Assembly (NCBI GenBank): GCA_021771815.1
Contig: JAETOE010000011.1
Location: forward strand, 1 to 64,000
Direction of reading: 5' to 3'
Source of the DNA: Roseburia hominis
GTDB taxonomy: Bacteria > Bacillota > Clostridia > Lachnospirales > Lachnospiraceae
Length of the DNA: 64,000 bases
In this document: positions 2,491 through 36,622 of the stretch, in pieces
How the letters are laid out: every line of letters begins with the position of its first letter
Numbering within the stretch: position 1 is the stretch's first letter
Program-made: the position numbers and the translations under genes
The notes under the pieces: model-generated
Database searches by the model: none
What the model was told of the DNA's origin: nothing
What the model saw: the letters and a program-made list of their open reading frames with translations, nothing else

Positions 2491-3441
2491 ATGAGCGGAC
2501 ATATTGCAGCGTTGAGCGAGGGAATCGAAAGGAAAAGAGTTGTATACAAAAATCGTTGCGGTTTGGACATTGTGGGGGAACTGTATCATAGCAGGGGGAT
2601 GGATTTGAGCGAAAAGCATCCGGCTCTGATCGTAGGCGCGCCCTATGGAGGTGTGAAAGAGCAGGGACCTTGTGTGTATGGCAATGAACTGGCACAAAAG
2701 GGCTTTGTTATCCTGACCTTTGATCAGTCCTTCATGGGCGAATCGGGCGGGTTTCCAAGGAATCTGTCTTCGCCGGACATTTTCGTAGAAAATTTCAGTG
2801 CGGCAGTGGACTATCTGGGCTTGCAGCCTTTTGTGGACCGGGAGAAAATCGGCGTGATTGGAATCTGTGGTTCCGGCGGATTCGCTCTTTCTGCCGCCCA
2901 GTGTGACACTCGTATCAAAGCGGTTGCTACCATGAGTATGTATGATATGAATGCCGCCGTCCGGGGCGGAATGGACAAAGACGCTATTCGCGCAGCGAAG
3001 GAGAAGCTTTCCAGACAGAGATGGATCGACGCGGAGAACGGCTATCCGGAATATCTGCCCAGTTTTCCGGAGCAGCCCTTGGAGGAAGTTCCTGCGGATA
3101 TTCCGGAGCCGGGAGCGGAATGGATGCGGTTCTACGCCGTAAAACGCGGTCATCATCCCAATGCCAGAGGCGGATTTACCACAACCAGCGATATGGCGAT
3201 GATGAACTTCCCGCTGCTTTCCTATATTGATGAGATTTCTCCACGGCCGATTTTGTTCGTAGTCGGAGATCGCGCTCATTCCCGTTTCTTTAGCGAGAAT
3301 GCCTATGCTGCTGCAGCAGAACCAAAGGAGATGGTTGTGGTAGAGGATGCGGAGCATATCGATCTGTACGACCGGACGGACCGGATTCCTTTTGATAAGC
3401 TGGCGGATTTTTTCAATGCGAATCTGAAATACGGGATGTGA
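2491..3441 (+). CDS. Alpha/beta hydrolase with possible Cys nucleophile
   Basis: A 316-residue cytoplasmic alpha/beta hydrolase of the dienelactone-hydrolase/YcjY-like group. The nucleophile elbow is GICGSGG at residues 124-130; Cys126 occupies the position of the nucleophile in dienelactone hydrolases, although the nearby Ser128 cannot be excluded. The likely acid is Asp260 (VVGDRAHS) and the catalytic base His289 (AEHIDLYD). The start ATG follows an AAGGAGG site. The substrate is unknown; the neighbouring MalY-type C-S lyase suggests a thioester or small organic compound. It overlaps an upstream in-frame extension of the next gene, but the real start of that gene is 54 bases downstream. Confidence 0.88.
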   Translation: MSGHIAALSEGIERKRVVYKNRCGLDIVGELYHSRGMDLSEKHPALIVGAPYGGVKEQGPCVYGNELAQKGFVILTFDQSFMGESGGFPRNLSSPDIFVENFSAAVDYLGLQPFVDREKIGVIGICGSGGFALSAAQCDTRIKAVATMSMYDMNAAVRGGMDKDAIRAAKEKLSRQRWIDAENGYPEYLPSFPEQPLEEVPADIPEPGAEWMRFYAVKRGHHPNARGGFTTTSDMAMMNFPLLSYIDEISPRPILFVVGDRAHSRFFSENAYAAAAEPKEMVVVEDAEHIDLYDRTDRIPFDKLADFFNANLKYGM

Positions 3442-3494
3442 CTGTAACCTTTTCATTAGACGAACCATTCAAAGCAGCAGTTTGGAGGTGCGAA

Positions 3495-4676
3495 ATGTTA
3501 TATGATTTTGATAAGCAGATCAATCGGAGGAACACCAATTCCCTGAAGTGGGAGGTAGGGGAAAATGAACTTCCCATGTGGGTGGCGGATATGGACTTTG
3601 AAACAGCGCCGGAGATTTGTGCAGCAATCCGAAAGAGGGCGGCTCACGGCGTGTTTGGATATTCCACTGTACCGGAGGAATGGTATCAGGCGTATATAGG
3701 ATGGTGGAAACGCCGCCATGATTTTCAGATGGAAAAGGACTGGCTGATTTTTTGCACCGGAGTAGTTCCCACTATTTCCAGTATGGTGCGGAAGCTGACG
3801 ACTCCGGCGGAAAAGGTGCTTGTACTGACGCCGGTTTATAATATCTTTTTCAATTCCATCCTCAATAACGGACGGCAGGTGTTGGAAAGCCGGATGGAAT
3901 ATGACGGGGAGACATATCAGATCAATTTTGAGGACCTGGAGCAGAAGCTTTCCGATCCGCAGACTTCTATGATGATTCTCTGCAATCCGCATAATCCGGT
4001 AGGAAAGATTTGGGACAGAGAAACGCTCGGGCGGATCGGAGAACTGTGCTGGAAGCATCATGTAGTTGTAATATCGGATGAAATTCATTGCGATTTGACA
4101 GAGCCCGGATGCGCTTATGTTCCCTTCGCATCCGTATCGAAGCATTGCCGGGATAACAGCGTCACCTGCGTTGCTCCGACCAAAACGTTTAACCTGGCGG
4201 GACTGCAGACAGCGGCGGTGGCAGTTCCCGACCCGGTTCTGCGCCACAAAGTGAGGCGCGGATTAAATACCGATGAAGCAGCGGAGCCGAACGCTTTTGC
4301 CATAGATGCGGCGATTGCTGCCTTTACAGAGGGTGAAGCGTGGTTAGATGCGCTGCGAGGATATATTCTGGAAAATAAAAAAGCGGCGGCAGAATATATC
4401 CGCGGGCAGATTCCTCAGATTGAGGTAGTTCCCTCCAAGGCAACCTACCTTTTGTGGCTGCACTGCAGCAGGATGGTGGGATTTGCCGCAGAAGCGGCAG
4501 AATATATGCGGGAGAAAACCGGCTTGTACTTATCAGCCGGAAACAGGTTCGGCGCGGGCGGCGGGGATTTCCTGCGGATGAATATCGCCTGTCCGCGGGC
4601 GGTACTGGAGGATGGTCTTTGCAGACTGAAAGAAGGAATTGCAGCCTATGAAGAATTTGCCGTAAACCGGTGTTAA
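3495..4676 (+). CDS. MalY/PatB-type PLP-dependent aminotransferase or C-S lyase
   Basis: A 393-residue fold-type I PLP enzyme of the MalY/PatB group, which cleaves cystathionine or cysteine conjugates or acts as an aminotransferase. Key features are the N-terminal LPMWVADMDF, the NPHNPVGK loop at 164-171, the PLP-phosphate-binding DEIHCDL around 195, and the Schiff-base Lys230 in PTKTFNLAG. The start at 3495 is preferred over an earlier in-frame ATG at 3438 because GGAGGTGCGA precedes it and MLYDFDKQINR is the normal family start. It is the last gene of the LysR-linked operon. Substrate specificity cannot be told from sequence. Confidence 0.9.
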   Translation: MLYDFDKQINRRNTNSLKWEVGENELPMWVADMDFETAPEICAAIRKRAAHGVFGYSTVPEEWYQAYIGWWKRRHDFQMEKDWLIFCTGVVPTISSMVRKLTTPAEKVLVLTPVYNIFFNSILNNGRQVLESRMEYDGETYQINFEDLEQKLSDPQTSMMILCNPHNPVGKIWDRETLGRIGELCWKHHVVVISDEIHCDLTEPGCAYVPFASVSKHCRDNSVTCVAPTKTFNLAGLQTAAVAVPDPVLRHKVRRGLNTDEAAEPNAFAIDAAIAAFTEGEAWLDALRGYILENKKAAAEYIRGQIPQIEVVPSKATYLLWLHCSRMVGFAAEAAEYMREKTGLYLSAGNRFGAGGGDFLRMNIACPRAVLEDGLCRLKEGIAAYEEFAVNRC

Positions 4677-12496: not shown

Positions 12497-13448
12497 GAGC
12501 AGAAATGTTGGCAGCGAAAGAAAAAGTTGATTCAATCATTCGTGATGAGCGAATTAGGGTAGACAATAGAAAAATCTACGCTATTATGCTGCGATGTAAA
12601 AATAAGGATAAAAACACAAACGTATGAGCTTTTATGCAGATACGGTAGGTAGTCTGTACGCATTCTGTGGAAGATAAGTAGTCTGCTCTTCTTGGGTCGC
12701 CCATTCTTTGTATATTACGGCTTGTAGGAAACGCAAGACATAAAGGCAGAATTTGTTATGGACAAGTTAGGAAAATTGACAAAGGAATCGGGGCTTTTTC
12801 GGCGTCGGGAATATTGAAAATATTTTTTTGAAGAACCTTTTTTGGTAGATACTTTCAAAAGGCTTGAAAGGGTAAATTTTTTGTATGCAAGGTTACATTT
12901 GACGCAAAGCCGAAGGAATATGAAGTGTCTGAGTTTATTGGAAAGTATTGTTTTCAATTATGATTTAGTCCGGCTGTGGTAACAGTTGTAAAGGAACAGA
13001 AGGTGAATCCCAAGCGCAAGCATCGGGAACACGAAAGTAGATGGAAGATGCCGGAGTGGGAACGAAATCGTAGTAGACATTGAAATTGCAGCAGGAGTAG
13101 TTGAAAACAGAGCATAAGCTCATCGTCAAGGAGCAGAGAAGCGGCGTCAGTTTGAACTGAAACAGTAGAAAAGGAAAGAGAAGCATAGGGGAGAGGTAAT
13201 ACCTGTTCCGGCTTTTCATGATGAAAATTTGTATTGGCTATAGTTATGCTTTTGAATGTCTGGAGCGATTAATTTACAAGGATATTTAAGCATACAAATA
13301 ACAGTGACGATACTTTATACTTTAACGTTAAAATACAGTTTTTGTTGCATGACAGGATGTTTACAAATTTCCTTTTTGATGGATATTGGTAAAAATAATG
13401 ATGAAGGCATTACAGATTATTTGAAATTATTGTTAGAGGAGGTTGTTT
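12497..13448. other. Gene-poor eroded stretch
   Basis: No convincing intact gene lies in these 950 bases. A 40-codon reading frame at 12505-12627 starts nine bases after the SIR2 gene but has no recognisable motif. Further on, short plus-strand stretches look like decayed coding sequence interrupted by stops, for example EEPFLVDTFKRLERVNFLYA near 12830 and QFELKQ-stop-KRKEKH at 13148-13184. A 12-base palindrome TTTAACGTTAAA lies near 13320, upstream of the lipoprotein gene and possibly part of its control region. Confidence 0.5.
13148..13184 (+). repeat. Copy 1 of a 37-base coding relic
   Basis: This 37-base stretch matches 17597-17633 at 32 of 37 positions; all five differences are transitions. 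In the shared frame both read QFxxKQxKRKEK, here with an internal TAG. Both copies stand in intergenic DNA just before an unrelated gene, so they look like the 3' ends of two lost members of the same gene family, perhaps a mobile-element protein. Confidence 0.45.
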
Positions 13449-31765: not shown

Positions 31766-32636
31766 GATTTATCGGCGGATTTTTGAGACGTTTCTTGTGT
31801 TGTTCGGAAATTTTTTGTATGCGTTTGGAATCGGGATGTTCATTCTGCCCGGCGGATTGATTACCGGAGGAACGACGGGAATCGCGCTTTTTATGAACCA
31901 GGTGGCGGGGATTCCGGTTTCTGCGTTCGTGTTTGGGGTTAACTCGCTCTTATTTTTGCTCGGGTTTGCGGTGTTCGGGCGGAAATTTGCGGCGAATACG
32001 TTGATCAGTACGATCAGTTATCCGATCGCACTGGAGATCGTTCAGCGTATCGCGGATGTAGGAATCCTGACGGACGATCTGTTTTTGTGCACGGTATTCG
32101 GCGGAATCTGCATTGGCGCCGCGATGGGAATTGTGATACGCGCCGGCGCGTCCAGCGGAGGAATGGATATCCCGCCGCTCGTGTTGAACCACTATTTTAA
32201 GATCCCGGTATCGCGTTCCATCTACGTGTTCGACATGCTGATTTTGCTGCTGCAGGCGACGAGGAGCACCGGGGAGCAGATTTTGTACGGTATCCTGCTC
32301 GTGATTATATACAGCACGGTGATAGACAAATGTCTGATGATGGGTACGGCGAAGATGCAGCTTAAGGTCGTCAGCGATAAGATCGAAGAAATCCGCAGCG
32401 CCATCATAACGGACATTGACCGCGGCGTTACAATGCTAAAGAGCGAGACGGGGTACATGGGGCAGCACACCCAGATGCTGCTTACCGTTGTCTCCATGCG
32501 GGAATTGACGAAGACGGAGAAGGTGATTCACGAAGTGGACGAGAATGCTTTTGTCATTATAAATCGTGTCAGTGAGGTGTCCGGGCGCGGTTTCTCAAGC
32601 AAGAAACGGTATTTGGAAAAGGAAGAACAGGAATGA
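31758..32636 (+). CDS. YitT-family membrane protein
   Basis: A 292-residue protein of the YitT/DUF161 family. The first 190 residues hold five or six membrane helices with the conserved LPGGLITGGTTGIAL and RAGASSGGMDI motifs. The last 90 residues are the soluble DUF2179 domain (GVTMLKSETGYMGQHTQML, ENAFVIINRVSEVSGRGF). The family is thought to transport a small molecule, but the substrate is not established. It overlaps both neighbours, including a four-base ATGA overlap with the LysR gene. Confidence 0.93.
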   Translation: MNKIYRRIFETFLVLFGNFLYAFGIGMFILPGGLITGGTTGIALFMNQVAGIPVSAFVFGVNSLLFLLGFAVFGRKFAANTLISTISYPIALEIVQRIADVGILTDDLFLCTVFGGICIGAAMGIVIRAGASSGGMDIPPLVLNHYFKIPVSRSIYVFDMLILLLQATRSTGEQILYGILLVIIYSTVIDKCLMMGTAKMQLKVVSDKIEEIRSAIITDIDRGVTMLKSETGYMGQHTQMLLTVVSMRELTKTEKVIHEVDENAFVIINRVSEVSGRGFSSKKRYLEKEEQE

Positions 32637-33538
32637 CACTTCAACAGCTATATTATGCACTGACAATCGCGGACTGCGGTTCCATGAACGAAGCGGCAAA
32701 ACGGCTCTTTCTGTCGCAGCCGAGCCTTTCCGAGACGGTGAAGGAACTGGAACAGGAGATCGGTTTGCAGATTTTCCTGCGCTCGAACAGAGGAATCGTC
32801 ATTACCCCGGAGGGCGAGGAGTTCTTAGGATATGCGAGACAGGTAACGGAGCAGTTCGGCATCTTAAAGGCGCGCTATATTGAGAAACAGCGCAAAGAAA
32901 AGTTCAGCGTTTCCATGCAGCACTACACCTTTGCGGTTAAGGCGTTCGTGGAGACGGTGAAGAAAGCCGGGATGGACAGCTATGAGTTCGCGGCGCATGA
33001 GACGACGACCTACGATGTCATGGAAAATGTCCGCAATTTCAAGAGTGAGATCGGTGTGCTGTATCTGAACGATTTCAATGAGAAAGTCATGACGAAGATC
33101 ATCCGGGAAAAGGGACTGGAATTTATAGAACTGTTTTCGTGCGATACCTATGTGTATCTCTGGTCGGGGCATCCGCTTGCAGGAAAGCCTTTGATTTCTA
33201 TGGAAGAACTGGACGAGTATCCCTGTCTTTCGTTTGACCAGGGAGCGAATAATTCGCTCTATCTCGCTGAGGAGATGAAGAGCACATATGATTACAAACG
33301 CCTTATCAAGGCGAACGACCGCGCGACGCTCTTAAATTTTATGATCGGGTTAAATGCTTATACGCTCTGCTCCGGCATTATCTGCGAGGAACTAAACGGC
33401 AGTGATTATATGGCGGTTCCGCTTGCGGAGACGGAGAAAATGCGGATTGGCTATGTGAAGCGCAAGGGCGCGGGCATCAGCCACATCGGTGAGATTTATA
33501 TAGAAGAGTTGAAGAAATACAGAGAGAAGATCATGTAG
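32633..33538 (+). CDS. LysR-family regulator, CysL-like
   Basis: A 301-residue LysR protein with the N-terminal winged helix (MNEAAKRLFLSQPSLSETVK, about 17-36) and a C-terminal effector-binding domain. Overall it looks closest to the CysL/CbbR-type branch. It is the last gene of the VanZ-like/YitT unit, which it overlaps by four bases. The next unit downstream is a methionine transporter with a Met/Cys-rich leader ORF, so sulfur control is conceivable, but LysR regulators usually act on a divergent gene and none is present here. Confidence 0.9.
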   Translation: MTLQQLYYALTIADCGSMNEAAKRLFLSQPSLSETVKELEQEIGLQIFLRSNRGIVITPEGEEFLGYARQVTEQFGILKARYIEKQRKEKFSVSMQHYTFAVKAFVETVKKAGMDSYEFAAHETTTYDVMENVRNFKSEIGVLYLNDFNEKVMTKIIREKGLEFIELFSCDTYVYLWSGHPLAGKPLISMEELDEYPCLSFDQGANNSLYLAEEMKSTYDYKRLIKANDRATLLNFMIGLNAYTLCSGIICEELNGSDYMAVPLAETEKMRIGYVKRKGAGISHIGEIYIEELKKYREKIM

Positions 33539-33551
33539 AGTACAGAAAGTA

Positions 33552-33600
33552 GAAGCCGATAGTTGATTATAGGGAAAACCTATAGCTAACTATCGGCTTC
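33552..33600. repeat. Nested 49-base inverted repeat
   Basis: The outer arms GAAGCCGATAGTT (33552-33564) and AACTATCGGCTTC (33588-33600) are perfectly complementary over 13 bases. Within them TATAGG and CCTATA flank a GAAAA loop. No T run follows closely on either strand, so it is a poor intrinsic terminator. It could be an operator for the adjacent LysR protein, an RNA structure, or a small mobile palindrome. Confidence 0.75.
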
Positions 33601-33626
33601 ATGTATTAACACCTTTTTTGATGACT

Positions 33627-33635
33627 TGCTATAAT
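33627..33635 (+). promoter_or_regulatory. Extended -10 promoter of the met leader
   Basis: TGC-TATAAT at 33627-33635 is an extended -10 element. No good -35 box is seen at the right distance. Transcription would start near 33642, giving the leader that contains the Met/Cys-rich ORF, the terminator and metNIQ. Confidence 0.55.
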
Positions 33636-33674
33636 AGCTTTTGTAAACAGGGAGCAAAACAAGGAGGATCTGTT

Positions 33675-33833
33675 ATGATGAATACAACACGCCGAATGAG
33701 AACAGAATGTATGATGTGCCGGACAATGTGCATGTGCAAGGGTATCATGCGCTGTGGTATGGCTGTCTTTTGCGCACGGTTTTCCCCGGAGTTCGCTGTT
33801 TCCTGTGACAGGAGAGAAGAACAGGCGGGATAA
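33675..33833 (+). CDS. Met/Cys-rich leader peptide upstream of metNIQ
   Basis: A 52-codon reading frame with a strong AAGGAGG site seven bases upstream. Nine of its first 29 codons are ATG (1, 2, 8, 13, 14, 18, 20, 25, 29) and Cys codons are at 12, 15, 19, 21, 27, 33 and 44. It ends 17 bases before an intrinsic terminator that precedes the methionine transporter. GGCTGTC at 33761-33767, inside the ORF, can pair with GGCAGCC at 33850-33856, the left arm of that terminator, giving an alternative antiterminator. This looks like ribosome-mediated attenuation sensing charged Met or Cys tRNA. A small metal-binding protein is the main alternative. Confidence 0.65.
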   Translation: MMNTTRRMRTECMMCRTMCMCKGIMRCGMAVFCARFSPEFAVSCDRREEQAG

Positions 33834-33850
33834 AACATCTGTGAGTACGG

Positions 33851-33873
33851 GCAGCCGATAGGCTGCTTTTTTT
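33851..33873 (+). terminator. Intrinsic terminator between leader ORF and metN
   Basis: GCAGCC (33851-33856), loop GATA, GGCTGC (33861-33866), then seven T residues. It lies 70 bases before metN and would stop most transcripts from the leader promoter unless an antiterminator forms. No second promoter of good quality is seen between it and metN. Confidence 0.88.
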
Positions 33874-33942
33874 CTGTCAATTTCGATATCCTTGACAGAA
33901 AATTCGAATTTAAGATGAGCAAGGATGGGAGAGGGTTCACAT

Positions 33943-35022
33943 ATGCCAGCAATCGAGGTACGCCATTTATCAAAGACCTTCGAGCAGAAGGGGAACAGCG
34001 TGGAAGCGCTGAAGGATATTTCACTGACAATTGAAGAGGGAGATATCTATGGAATCATCGGAATGTCGGGCGCCGGAAAAAGTACTCTGGTGCGATGTCT
34101 CAATTACCTTGAGAAACCGACGAGCGGTGAGGTCATTGTTGATGGAAGGGAGCTTGGAACGTTAAGCGGGAGGGAGCTTCGGGCGCAGCGGAGCAATATC
34201 GCCATGATTTTCCAGAATTTTAATCTGCTGATGCAGAAAAACGTCATCGACAATGTGTGCTTCCCGATGCAGATTCAAAAAGTAAAGAAAAAAGATGCGA
34301 GGGGAAAGGCGTTAGAGCTTCTTCGGACGGTCGGGCTATCCGATAAGGCGCGCGCATATCCTTCGCAGCTTTCGGGAGGACAGCGGCAGAGAGTCGCGAT
34401 TGCGAGAGCACTCGCATCCGACCCGAAGATTCTGCTCTGCGACGAGGCGACGAGCGCGTTGGACCCGCAGACGACGGCGTCGATTCTTGCGCTGCTTAAG
34501 GAAATCAATCAGAGGCTCGGCATCACGATCGTGATTATCACACATCAGATGTCGGTGATCCGTGAAATCTGCAGTCATGTAGCGATTGTGGAGCAGGGAC
34601 AGATCGCAGAGCAGGGATTGGTCGAGGAAATCTTCAACCACCCCCGTTCGAAGGTAGCGCGAAGCCTGATCTTAGGTGACCGCGCGGAGGGAAGCTGGGA
34701 AGGCAATCCGGAAGCTTCCTCCACGGCAGGAAGGGCGCCTGGCGAAAAGGACCTTGAATGTAAGACGCTTCTCGGAGACAGAAAGCTGCGTATCGTCTTT
34801 TCGGAAAATTCGGCGTTCGAGCCGGTCATTGCCAATATGGTGTTGAAATTCGGCGTTCCGGTGAATATCCTTCGGGCGGACACCAAGAATGTCGGCGGCT
34901 TTGCCAAGGGAGAGATGATATTGGGACTTCCTCCGGAGCGTGAGCTTTGGGCGGAAATGGAAGCTTATCTTGTAGAAAAGGGACTTGAGATTGAGGAGGT
35001 GACAGAGGATGTGGAGCAGTGA
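33943..35022 (+). CDS. metN: Methionine ABC transporter, ATP-binding subunit
   Basis: A 359-residue ATPase that powers methionine uptake. Walker A is GMSGAGKS at 40-47, the ABC signature LSGGQ at 143-147, Walker B ILLCDEATSALD at about 163-174. The last 85 residues form the NIL domain (LRIVFSENSAFEPVIANMV) that binds methionine and gives feedback inhibition. The ATG at 33943 with GGGAGAGGG upstream is preferred to one six codons earlier. Overlaps metI by 14 bases. Confidence 0.95.
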   Translation: MPAIEVRHLSKTFEQKGNSVEALKDISLTIEEGDIYGIIGMSGAGKSTLVRCLNYLEKPTSGEVIVDGRELGTLSGRELRAQRSNIAMIFQNFNLLMQKNVIDNVCFPMQIQKVKKKDARGKALELLRTVGLSDKARAYPSQLSGGQRQRVAIARALASDPKILLCDEATSALDPQTTASILALLKEINQRLGITIVIITHQMSVIREICSHVAIVEQGQIAEQGLVEEIFNHPRSKVARSLILGDRAEGSWEGNPEASSTAGRAPGEKDLECKTLLGDRKLRIVFSENSAFEPVIANMVLKFGVPVNILRADTKNVGGFAKGEMILGLPPERELWAEMEAYLVEKGLEIEEVTEDVEQ

Positions 35023-35668
35023 AGTGACGGAAATGATTATCCGGGGAATCGGGGAATCACTCTATATGACGATCGGGGCGACGGTATTCGGCTATCTGCT
35101 CGGGCTTCCGGCGGGAATCCTGCTCGCAGTGACGGATAAGGACGGCATTCATCCGAACGCCGCCGTCTACAAGGTGCTTGATGTCATCGTTAATATCTTA
35201 AGGAGCATTCCGTTTCTGATTCTTCTGATACTGCTGATCCCGTTTACCAGAGCGATTGTCGGAAAAAGCTACGGACCGACAGCGACGATTGTGCCGCTCG
35301 TGATCGCGGCGGCGCCGTTTATCGCCCGCATGGTGGAATCCTCTTTAAAGGAGGTGGACGCCGGAGTCGTGGAGGCGGCGCGTTCGATGGGTGCAGATAA
35401 TTTTACGATTATCACAAAGGTGCTTCTGGTGGAGGCGCGGACGTCCCTGGTCGTGGGGAGCACGATCGCGCTCGGTACGATCCTCGGCTACTCGGCGATG
35501 GCGGGAAGTGTTGGCGGAGGCGGGCTCGGCGATATTGCGATCCGCTACGGATATCATCGGTATGAGACGGACATCATGGCTGTGACGGTGATTTTGCTTA
35601 TTGTGTTGGTACAGATTTTCCAGACCATCGGAATGCGTGTGGCATCCCGTCTGGATAAACGAAAATAA
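35009..35668 (+). CDS. metI: Methionine ABC transporter, permease subunit
   Basis: A 219-residue inner-membrane permease with five membrane segments and the conserved EAA-type loop (EAARSMGADNFTIITKVLLVEA, of which EAArsmGA is the core). It pairs with MetN and MetQ. The start lies inside the end of metN, indicating coupling. Family length and arrangement are normal. Confidence 0.95.
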   Translation: MWSSEVTEMIIRGIGESLYMTIGATVFGYLLGLPAGILLAVTDKDGIHPNAAVYKVLDVIVNILRSIPFLILLILLIPFTRAIVGKSYGPTATIVPLVIAAAPFIARMVESSLKEVDAGVVEAARSMGADNFTIITKVLLVEARTSLVVGSTIALGTILGYSAMAGSVGGGGLGDIAIRYGYHRYETDIMAVTVILLIVLVQIFQTIGMRVASRLDKRK

Positions 35669-35698
35669 TTTATGGAGAAAAACAAGGAGGATGATATT

Positions 35699-36622
35699 AT
35701 GAAAAAGAAAATTTTAACAGGTATTTTAGCAGGTGTATTGGCAATCGGAACACTTACGGGCTGCGGAAACAGCGGCACGGGCGCAGCGGAGAACGGACCG
35801 GCGCAGGGAGAGACGGCGGCAGATGCAGGGAGCGCGCAGGCGACGGAGCATACCGCAGACGCAGTCGCGGCAGGGCAGCCGGAGTCGAAGGGGACGATCA
35901 CGGTGGCGGCGTCGGCAACGCCGCACGCGGAAATCTTAGAGCAGGCAAAGGCGATCCTTGCAGAGCAGGGATGGGATCTTCAGGTAACGGTATTTGATGA
36001 TTATATACAGCCGAATGAGGTGGTGGAGAGCGGAGAATTTGACGCGAACTATTTCCAGCATATCCCGTATCTCGAAGAATTTAATGAGACAAAGGGCACG
36101 CATTTAGTCAACGTGGGCGGCATTCACTATGAGCCGTTCGGCATTTACCCGGGCACAAAGAAGGATTTATCGGAACTGGCGGAGGGCGATGTGATCGCCG
36201 TGCCGAACGATACCACGAACGAGGCGAGGGCGCTGCTTCTGCTTGAGGCGAACGGCATCATCACCCTGAAGGAGGATGCGGGGCTTACCGCGACGGTTAA
36301 CGATATCGTCGAGAATCCGTACGGCATCAAGATCGAGGAGCTTGAGGCAGCGCAGGTCGCAAGAGTCGTGCCGGAGGTCGCATTCGTCGTATTAAACGGC
36401 AATTATGCACTGCAGGCGGGCTATACCGTGGCAAATGATTCGATTGCCTATGAGACAGGCGATTCCGAGGCGGCAAAGACTTACGTGAATGTGATCGCCG
36501 TGAAGGAAGGAAATGAGCAGAACGAAGGTATTCAGGCACTTGTTGAGGTGCTTAGGTCCGATGCGGTGAAGCAGTACATCAATGATACTTATAACGGTGC
36601 GGTAATTCCGTCCGGGGAGTAA
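35699..36622 (+). CDS. metQ: Methionine ABC transporter, substrate-binding lipoprotein
   Basis: A 307-residue NlpA/MetQ lipoprotein. The signal peptide ends in the lipobox LTGC with Cys22. A short low-complexity linker rich in A, G and E follows, then the binding domain from about 65 (ITVAASATPHAEILEQAKAI, DDYIQPNEVVESGEFDANYFQH, NVGGIHYEPFGIYPG). It is tethered outside the membrane and delivers D/L-methionine to MetI. The ATG at 35699 has AAGGAGG upstream; an ATG nine codons earlier does not. Confidence 0.94.
   Translation: MKKKILTGILAGVLAIGTLTGCGNSGTGAAENGPAQGETAADAGSAQATEHTADAVAAGQPESKGTITVAASATPHAEILEQAKAILAEQGWDLQVTVFDDYIQPNEVVESGEFDANYFQHIPYLEEFNETKGTHLVNVGGIHYEPFGIYPGTKKDLSELAEGDVIAVPNDTTNEARALLLLEANGIITLKEDAGLTATVNDIVENPYGIKIEELEAAQVARVVPEVAFVVLNGNYALQAGYTVANDSIAYETGDSEAAKTYVNVIAVKEGNEQNEGIQALVEVLRSDAVKQYINDTYNGAVIPSGE

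Follow-up and report, generated by a model that had tools for sequence, protein, structure and literature searches.

The window, the whole stretch of 64,000 nucleotides analysed here from the 3.74 Mb genome of Roseburia hominis, contains the methionine uptake operon metNIQ on its forward strand. metN (33943–35022) encodes the ATPase of a methionine ABC transporter with a NIL domain, as judged by profile and domain matches; its match to NCBIfam TIGR02314 (E 3.9e-105, 351.6 bits) is below the cut-off of 499.7. The permease gene metI (35009–35668; NF008049, above cut-off) and a gene for a metQ/NlpA-type substrate-binding lipoprotein (35672–36622; PF03180) follow. The nearest named MetN relative found is from a Lachnospiraceae MAG (67% identity), and close records are possibly absent from the comparison.

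A LysR-type regulator gene (32633–33538; domains PF00126/PF03466) lies just upstream of an inverted repeat, TATAGG-n5-CCTATA (33568–33584). By eye, relatives show a similar repeat at the same place before their metN promoters, whether or not they have a leader; it is probably the operator of the adjoining regulator. A 13-bp inverted repeat, GAAGCCGATAGTT/AACTATCGGCTTC (33552–33600, by eye), encloses this putative operator and could have a second role as the end of the regulator transcript. The predicted promoter (33606–33635, forward strand) consists of a −35 element, TTAACA (33606–33611), an 18 nt spacer and an extended −10 element, TGCTATAAT, of the form TG-n-TATAAT (33630–33635). It matches the consensus in 11 of 12 positions, has TG before the −10 and is situated about 40 nt upstream of the leader open reading frame. 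Similar promoter-like blocks precede metN in relatives (by eye).

The leader open reading frame (33675–33833, forward strand) has 52 codons and a TAA stop, is preceded by the Shine-Dalgarno (SD) sequence AAGGAGG (33661–33667), and its translation is MMNTTRRMRTECMMCRTMCMCKGIMRCGMAVFCARFSPEFAVSCDRREEQAG. Codons 1–33 include nine Met and six Cys, and a seventh Cys is at codon 44. No other of the 184 SD-led open reading frames of 15–60 codons on both strands of the window is as Met/Cys-rich (at least six Met/Cys codons, at least 25% of the frame), nor is any of 264 SD-led small frames in 29 control loci. An intrinsic terminator follows, with a stem formed by 33849–33856 and 33861–33868 and seven T residues at 33867–33873. 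The promoter, Shine-Dalgarno sequence, 52-codon frame, Met/Cys counts, terminator and metN listed in an earlier note on this DNA were all found again on the sequence; the terminator, there placed at 33851–33873, keeps its 3′ end and starts two bases earlier, at 33849.

The same note had seen no S-box, T-box or other riboswitch, and Rfam at gathering thresholds likewise finds nothing at the metN leader of the window. Elsewhere in the genome, the only SAM riboswitch (S-box) match is before metK, and 13 T-box matches are present, four of them above cut-off. The sole Rfam match of the window is an azaaromatic (yjdF) riboswitch aptamer (12598–12720, forward strand); the next open reading frame of at least 60 amino acids, on the forward strand, starts at 13256.

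Folding of the leader RNA

The RNA was folded from 12 nt beyond the ribosomal A site, position by position. In the folds obtained for this leader, protector, antiterminator and terminator are arranged in four segments in the classical manner, and the MCMC codons coincide with segment 1. Segment 1 (33733–33750) is the 5′ strand of the protector hairpin and pairs with 33757–33776 in the minimum free energy fold; a closely similar hairpin appears in another fold. Segment 2 (33757–33779) is the 5′ strand of the antiterminator and consists of GGCTGTCT (33761–33768), TGC (33771–33773) and CACGG (33775–33779). Segment 3 (33839–33856) is the 3′ strand, and within it GGGCAGCC (33849–33856) doubles as the 5′ arm of the terminator. 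The pairing proposed earlier between the interior of the open reading frame and the left terminator arm is thus borne out, as GGCTGTCT can pair with GGGCAGCC; with the outer pairs the antiterminator has 8 + 3 + 5 pairs. Segment 4 (33861–33873) comprises the terminator 3′ arm and the T tract.

In this model the ribosome positions that dissolve the terminator are around codons 18–23 (MCMCKG, 33726–33743). Of all A-site positions, only M20–I24, just past MCMC, give a terminator probability of less than 0.5, with a minimum of 0.01. The probability is 0.5–0.7 at codons 11–13 and 18–19, 0.97 without a ribosome and 0.99 with the ribosome at the stop codon. With assumed footprints of 6–18 nt the opening shifts between M18 and R26, and the effect survives. 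When the stretch from the Met/Cys run to the terminator is shuffled, loss of the terminator (probability below 0.1) occurs in 4 of 150 sequences, and loss together with an intact free state in one of 150; a separate shuffle test of the ribosome-position fold gives p 0.033. The 8-bp pairing of the window taken alone is no better than in shuffles (p 0.40), and its own arm ranks 24th of 40 against the arms of other leaders.

Leaders upstream of metN in related bacteria

Relatives were surveyed with metN as the anchor. In the genus, 34 of 62 genomes have a MetN match (E 1e-60) and 30 loci were read. In the family MetN was found in 125 of 250 genomes, about one per genus (E 1e-95), and 109 regions were read, which leaves out the genome of the window and 15 other matching genomes. 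A leader was defined as an SD-led open reading frame that has five or more further Met/Cys codons, making up 20% or more of its codons, and is followed by a terminator. Such a leader precedes metN at nine of the 30 genus loci (window included), at 28 of the 109 family loci from other genera and at three of 80 named loci (L063, L095 and L121), some of which hold little DNA upstream of metN (131 nt in L103, for example). The majority of relatives thus have no leader at metN. Outside the family in the same order, leaders are present in two of 57 usable metN regions (from 100 matching genomes; L306, taken from the wrong side of metN, and L271, read out of frame, are excluded), both of one genus. 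One further candidate there, L323, has no terminator and was rejected as a chance occurrence.

A terminator lies between the frame and metN in 40 of 44 candidates, 33 detected by scan (at most 160 nt past the frame) and seven by eye. The remaining four (L053, L055, L057 and L079), with no terminator found and TTG or GTG starts, were judged by eye to be chance and are omitted from all counts of 40 leaders, and L237, with a Met/Cys frame and a terminator, is below the leader threshold and outside the counts. Leaders range from 19 to 52 codons. Met and Cys account for 447 of 1409 non-start codons, in a set chosen for Met/Cys; Met exceeds Cys in 38 of the 40, and no leader is without Cys. At L303, one of the two loci outside the family, two Met/Cys leaders stand in tandem (about −378 to −31 relative to metN), and both are followed by a terminator of their own. 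In L038, in the 250 nt that precede metN, a terminator and the tail of an open reading frame are seen as in L039, with the Met/Cys part absent (by eye); this is perhaps a decayed leader, judging from the sequence.

At a stricter threshold, Met+Cys-rich SD-led small frames are found upstream of metN in seven of the 30 regions of the genus and 25 of the 109 of the family. On the opposite strand there are none in all three sets, and 20 dinucleotide shuffles give means of 0.0, 0.0 and 0.1. Among amino-acid pairs, Met+Cys ranks first in the family (tied with Met+Ser), third in the genus and outside the eight commonest in the 80 named regions; since shuffled sequences yield comparable counts for some other pairs, Leu+Arg among them, the rank alone is weak proof. 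When the leader peptide of the window was used as query against 295 genomes of the order, 99 other genomes had matches, which were weak (best E 7.8e-4) and often interrupted by stops; these were taken as unspecific without each being read, and it was metN as anchor that worked.

Neither a SAM riboswitch (RF00162) nor a T-box (RF00230) is found at the 36 of the 40 leader loci that were scanned with Rfam gathering thresholds. Among 43 leaderless loci scanned, a T-box precedes metN in L215 and L232, where related genera carry a Met/Cys leader, an exchange of sensors at one operon. A third leaderless locus, L037, has the orphan Rfam motif TwoAYGGAY (RF01731) at 1172–1481, and the motif also occurs near metN in L039, which has a leader (2618–2853 and 3301–3634). 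The genomes concerned, G326 and G317, have 39 and 22 matches, the genome of the window none, and those near metN are inside inverted repeats; by its sequence context TwoAYGGAY resembles a mobile repeat of high copy number (MITE-like) and not a gene-specific regulator.

Codons, peptide and alternative pairing

Selection on codons was compared in ten hand-picked pairs of related leaders, in alignments that themselves favour Met/Cys matches. Codons other than Met/Cys have pN/pS of about 0.4–1.1, for example pN 0.45 and pS 0.45 in L040/L044, pN 0.29 and pS 0.31 in L217/L223, and pN 0.08 and pS 0.16 in L031/L032 (few sites); Met/Cys codons have pN 0.20 in the first of these pairs and 0.00 in the second. 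MetN itself is constrained (pN 0.13 and pS 0.80 in L040/L044; pN/pS of 0.11 and 0.16 in two pairs). The conservation of Met/Cys codons, which the earlier note had suggested checking in orthologous leaders, is seen in nine of ten pairs, in which these codons change residue less than the remaining peptide; the difference is clear in seven and slight in L031/L032 and L212/L214. In L246/L248 the trend is reversed and Met/Cys codons are not better kept. The pair nearest to the window, L031/L032, keeps 14 of 17 Met/Cys residues and 27 of 32 others and is too close to separate the two classes.

Part of the peptide, AMQMNM..MMNGM, is common to one sub-clade; beyond Met and Cys, no residue pattern common to the 40 leaders is apparent by eye, and NCBIfam/Pfam profile searches give no domain match to the leader peptide. 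It had been argued that a peptide occurring away from metN would be a small functional protein. No second leader was detected in the genome of the window or in 18 others, by a search of limited sensitivity that gave one weak, stop-interrupted match. A search of 16 genomes with a clade peptide yielded a single match in each of nine, always at the metN position; the known leader was missed in the other seven, so that diverged copies could escape. Three metN leaders and the one interrupted match came from two further genomes. In the genome of the window, the peptide search found no second copy, and the motif ATGTGYATGTGY has four other matches, two at one place, none of which is a leader by eye (leaders without MCMC would escape). 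Near-neutral drift outside Met/Cys together with leader matches at metN suggests that the codons matter rather than the peptide, and that the unit is tied to metN.

The alternative pairing was assessed leader by leader between the stretch past the middle of the Met/Cys run and the terminator 5′ arm, with an arm-swap permutation as a substitute for formal covariation statistics. Leaders prefer their own terminator arm over those of other leaders (p = 5e-5, the lowest value attainable with 20,000 draws), both in the 40 leaders and in 25 after thinning. Measured from the sixth codon, pairing is better than in shuffles at p below 0.05 in 11 of 40 leaders, with a combined test of 8e-9, although the leaders are related and combined p values therefore overstate independence. 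In transcripts cut after the arm, the terminator 5′ arm is sequestered at 0.65 versus 0.51 in shuffles (Wilcoxon 4e-5). In 29 of 40 leaders the partner of this arm starts 12–75 nt downstream of the midpoint of the run, with 17.5 expected (p 0.0003); in the model this would be the stretch left free by a stalled ribosome. The alternative pairing sought in orthologous leaders is accordingly present, kept in place while the sequence changes and with own arms preferred.

Ten leaders have a TGTATGGATTGTGA-like element (at least 11 of 14 bases) near the stop codon, six inside the frame and four across or after the stop. It is the best partner of the arm in six of the ten, the exceptions being L212, L242, L246 and L248; in L212 it pairs in the stalled-ribosome fold. 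Elements inside open reading frames occupy all three frames, and this indifference to frame argues for a role of the RNA and against one of the peptide. In equilibrium folds the terminator probability drops below 0.5 at some Met/Cys codon in only eight of the 40 leaders and is 0.5 or more throughout in the other 32, in which, by the model, the antiterminator would need to win by forming first.

Proposed attenuation and comparison with known systems

We consider it highly probable that metNIQ is controlled by ribosome-mediated transcription attenuation in response to methionine, and very likely to cysteine too. This reading, put forward in the earlier note, is supported in silico by the conservation of Met/Cys codons, by terminators in 40 of 44 candidates and by a pairing conserved in place. 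From the anatomy, the conservation and the alternative pairing, all established computationally, we infer translation of the leader, stalling, termination and the amino acids sensed, as follows. RNA polymerase would start at the LysR-type promoter and a ribosome would translate the Met/Cys-rich leader. With Met and Cys plentiful, the ribosome would clear the MCMC codons and reach the stop codon near segment 3, the hairpin at 33849–33868 would form and transcription would end at about 33873. With charged Met-tRNA or Cys-tRNA scarce, the ribosome would wait at about codons 18–23 and cover segment 1, leaving segment 2 (33757–33779) free to pair with segment 3 (33839–33856), and the polymerase would continue into metN. 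Without a ribosome, segment 1 would pair with segment 2 and the terminator would stand. As a counterpoint, Met starvation would lower fMet-tRNA and with it leader initiation, which would favour the terminator. Methionine is expected to dominate, with cysteine as a second input, since Met exceeds Cys in nearly all leaders and Cys is present in each. Attenuation seems to supplement LysR-type control, because the repeat and promoter precede metN with and without a leader.

Three other readings were weighed. The nascent chain itself might arrest the ribosome, a Met/Cys-rich peptide sensing methionine, SAM or an oxidant in the tunnel and acting through the same antiterminator. The part of the peptide shared by one sub-clade is in keeping with this, but known arrest peptides keep specific residues, and conserved nascent-chain residues of the TnaC/SecM type are not seen; by eye the 40 leaders have no common pattern beyond Met and Cys, and the rest of the peptide drifts in most pairs. 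Arrest is therefore rated as very unlikely. Even less credence is given to a small functional protein, for example a metal-binding one, which would be Met/Cys-rich and located before metN by chance, with the terminator as the end of its own transcript. A frame of 52 codons is long for a leader peptide, and several nearby Cys residues could bind metal, to judge from the sequence. A functional protein is nonetheless hard to reconcile with codons that are near-neutral outside Met/Cys in most pairs, with a length that varies from 19 to 52 codons and the lack of a domain match, or with peptide searches that, within their limited sensitivity, gave metN leaders only apart from the one weak interrupted match. 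The stretch past the Met/Cys run, moreover, pairs with the terminator arm.

The lowest probability, close to negligible, is assigned to an arrangement without amino-acid sensing, in which the LysR-controlled promoter provides the regulation and the terminator is constitutive or coupled to translation as a general sensor of slow translation. A LysR-type promoter already gives control, and in the model any ribosome halted at about codons 18–26 opens the switch. Met/Cys codons would however be needless in such a device, yet they form nearly a third of the non-start codons in the 40 leaders, albeit in leaders chosen for this, and the count of Met+Cys frames over all regions exceeds that in shuffles.

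The attenuator preferred here might be extended to a two-input sulfur-amino-acid gate, in which the mixing of Met and Cys codons lets a shortage of either amino acid open the switch, the Cys codons preserving its function where lack of Met cripples leader initiation. Such a gate would regulate methionine uptake widely among Lachnospiraceae-type bacteria and evolve fast, trading places with T-boxes and standing two in series in one lineage. This broader proposal is tentative, and we hold it somewhat less probable than an even chance.

Control by riboswitches and T-boxes is classically illustrated by the methionine genes of Firmicutes. There, T-box and SAM riboswitch leaders serve a comparable function, but they bind tRNA or SAM directly and need no leader translation. 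If the attenuator is real, it represents a third sensor for Firmicutes methionine genes, one that reads tRNA charging via the ribosome and is repeated across many genera of one family. It also raises the puzzle of leader translation reporting a shortage of the amino acid that begins every protein. The operon offers diverged leaders, relatives without a leader, T-boxes in its place and a tandem copy, so that the gain, loss and replacement of sensors can be compared directly. Titles and abstracts of the open-licence literature gave no recognisable Met leader peptide in Firmicutes.

The trpL/hisL-type attenuators of Proteobacteria have regulatory codons at segment 1, followed by 1:2, 2:3 and 3:4 hairpins. 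The window leader has the same four-segment design; it differs in its proposed sensing of Met (and Cys), in controlling uptake and not synthesis, and in belonging to Firmicutes. Cysteine leaders of actinobacteria were reportedly also described by Canestrari in 2020.

Within Firmicutes, a His leader has been predicted before hisZ/hisS paralogues in bacilli (PMC2965389) and a leucine-rich attenuator is reported at ilvD of S. aureus (PMC5794164). These have a leader peptide and a terminator in common with the window leader but concern other amino acids, and no Met leader is mentioned in the available portions of either paper. In actinobacteria, short open reading frames with runs of Cys codons precede sulfur genes (PMC1262725); according to the accessible part of that source the codons are for Cys only, and the Mycobacterium regions do not have a conserved terminator hairpin.

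Among the published systems found, metL of Streptomyces lividans comes closest; it is a predicted leader of 29 residues before metNIQ that ends in CMCRRMCAF (PMC8079986). The authors of that paper include it in their list of Met-dependent leader peptides and remark on Met and Thr. As far as the available sections of that paper go, metL is similar in being a short open reading frame with a Met/Cys cluster (MSTTSDRTPATEATTTPGARCMCRRMCAF) at its end, before the same operon; it differs in being leaderless, in having no typical Rho-independent terminator and in being described from one species (PMC8079986). The window leader, by comparison, is SD-led and comes with a promoter and predicted protector, antiterminator and terminator, and leaders of its kind occur across many genera within a single Clostridia family.
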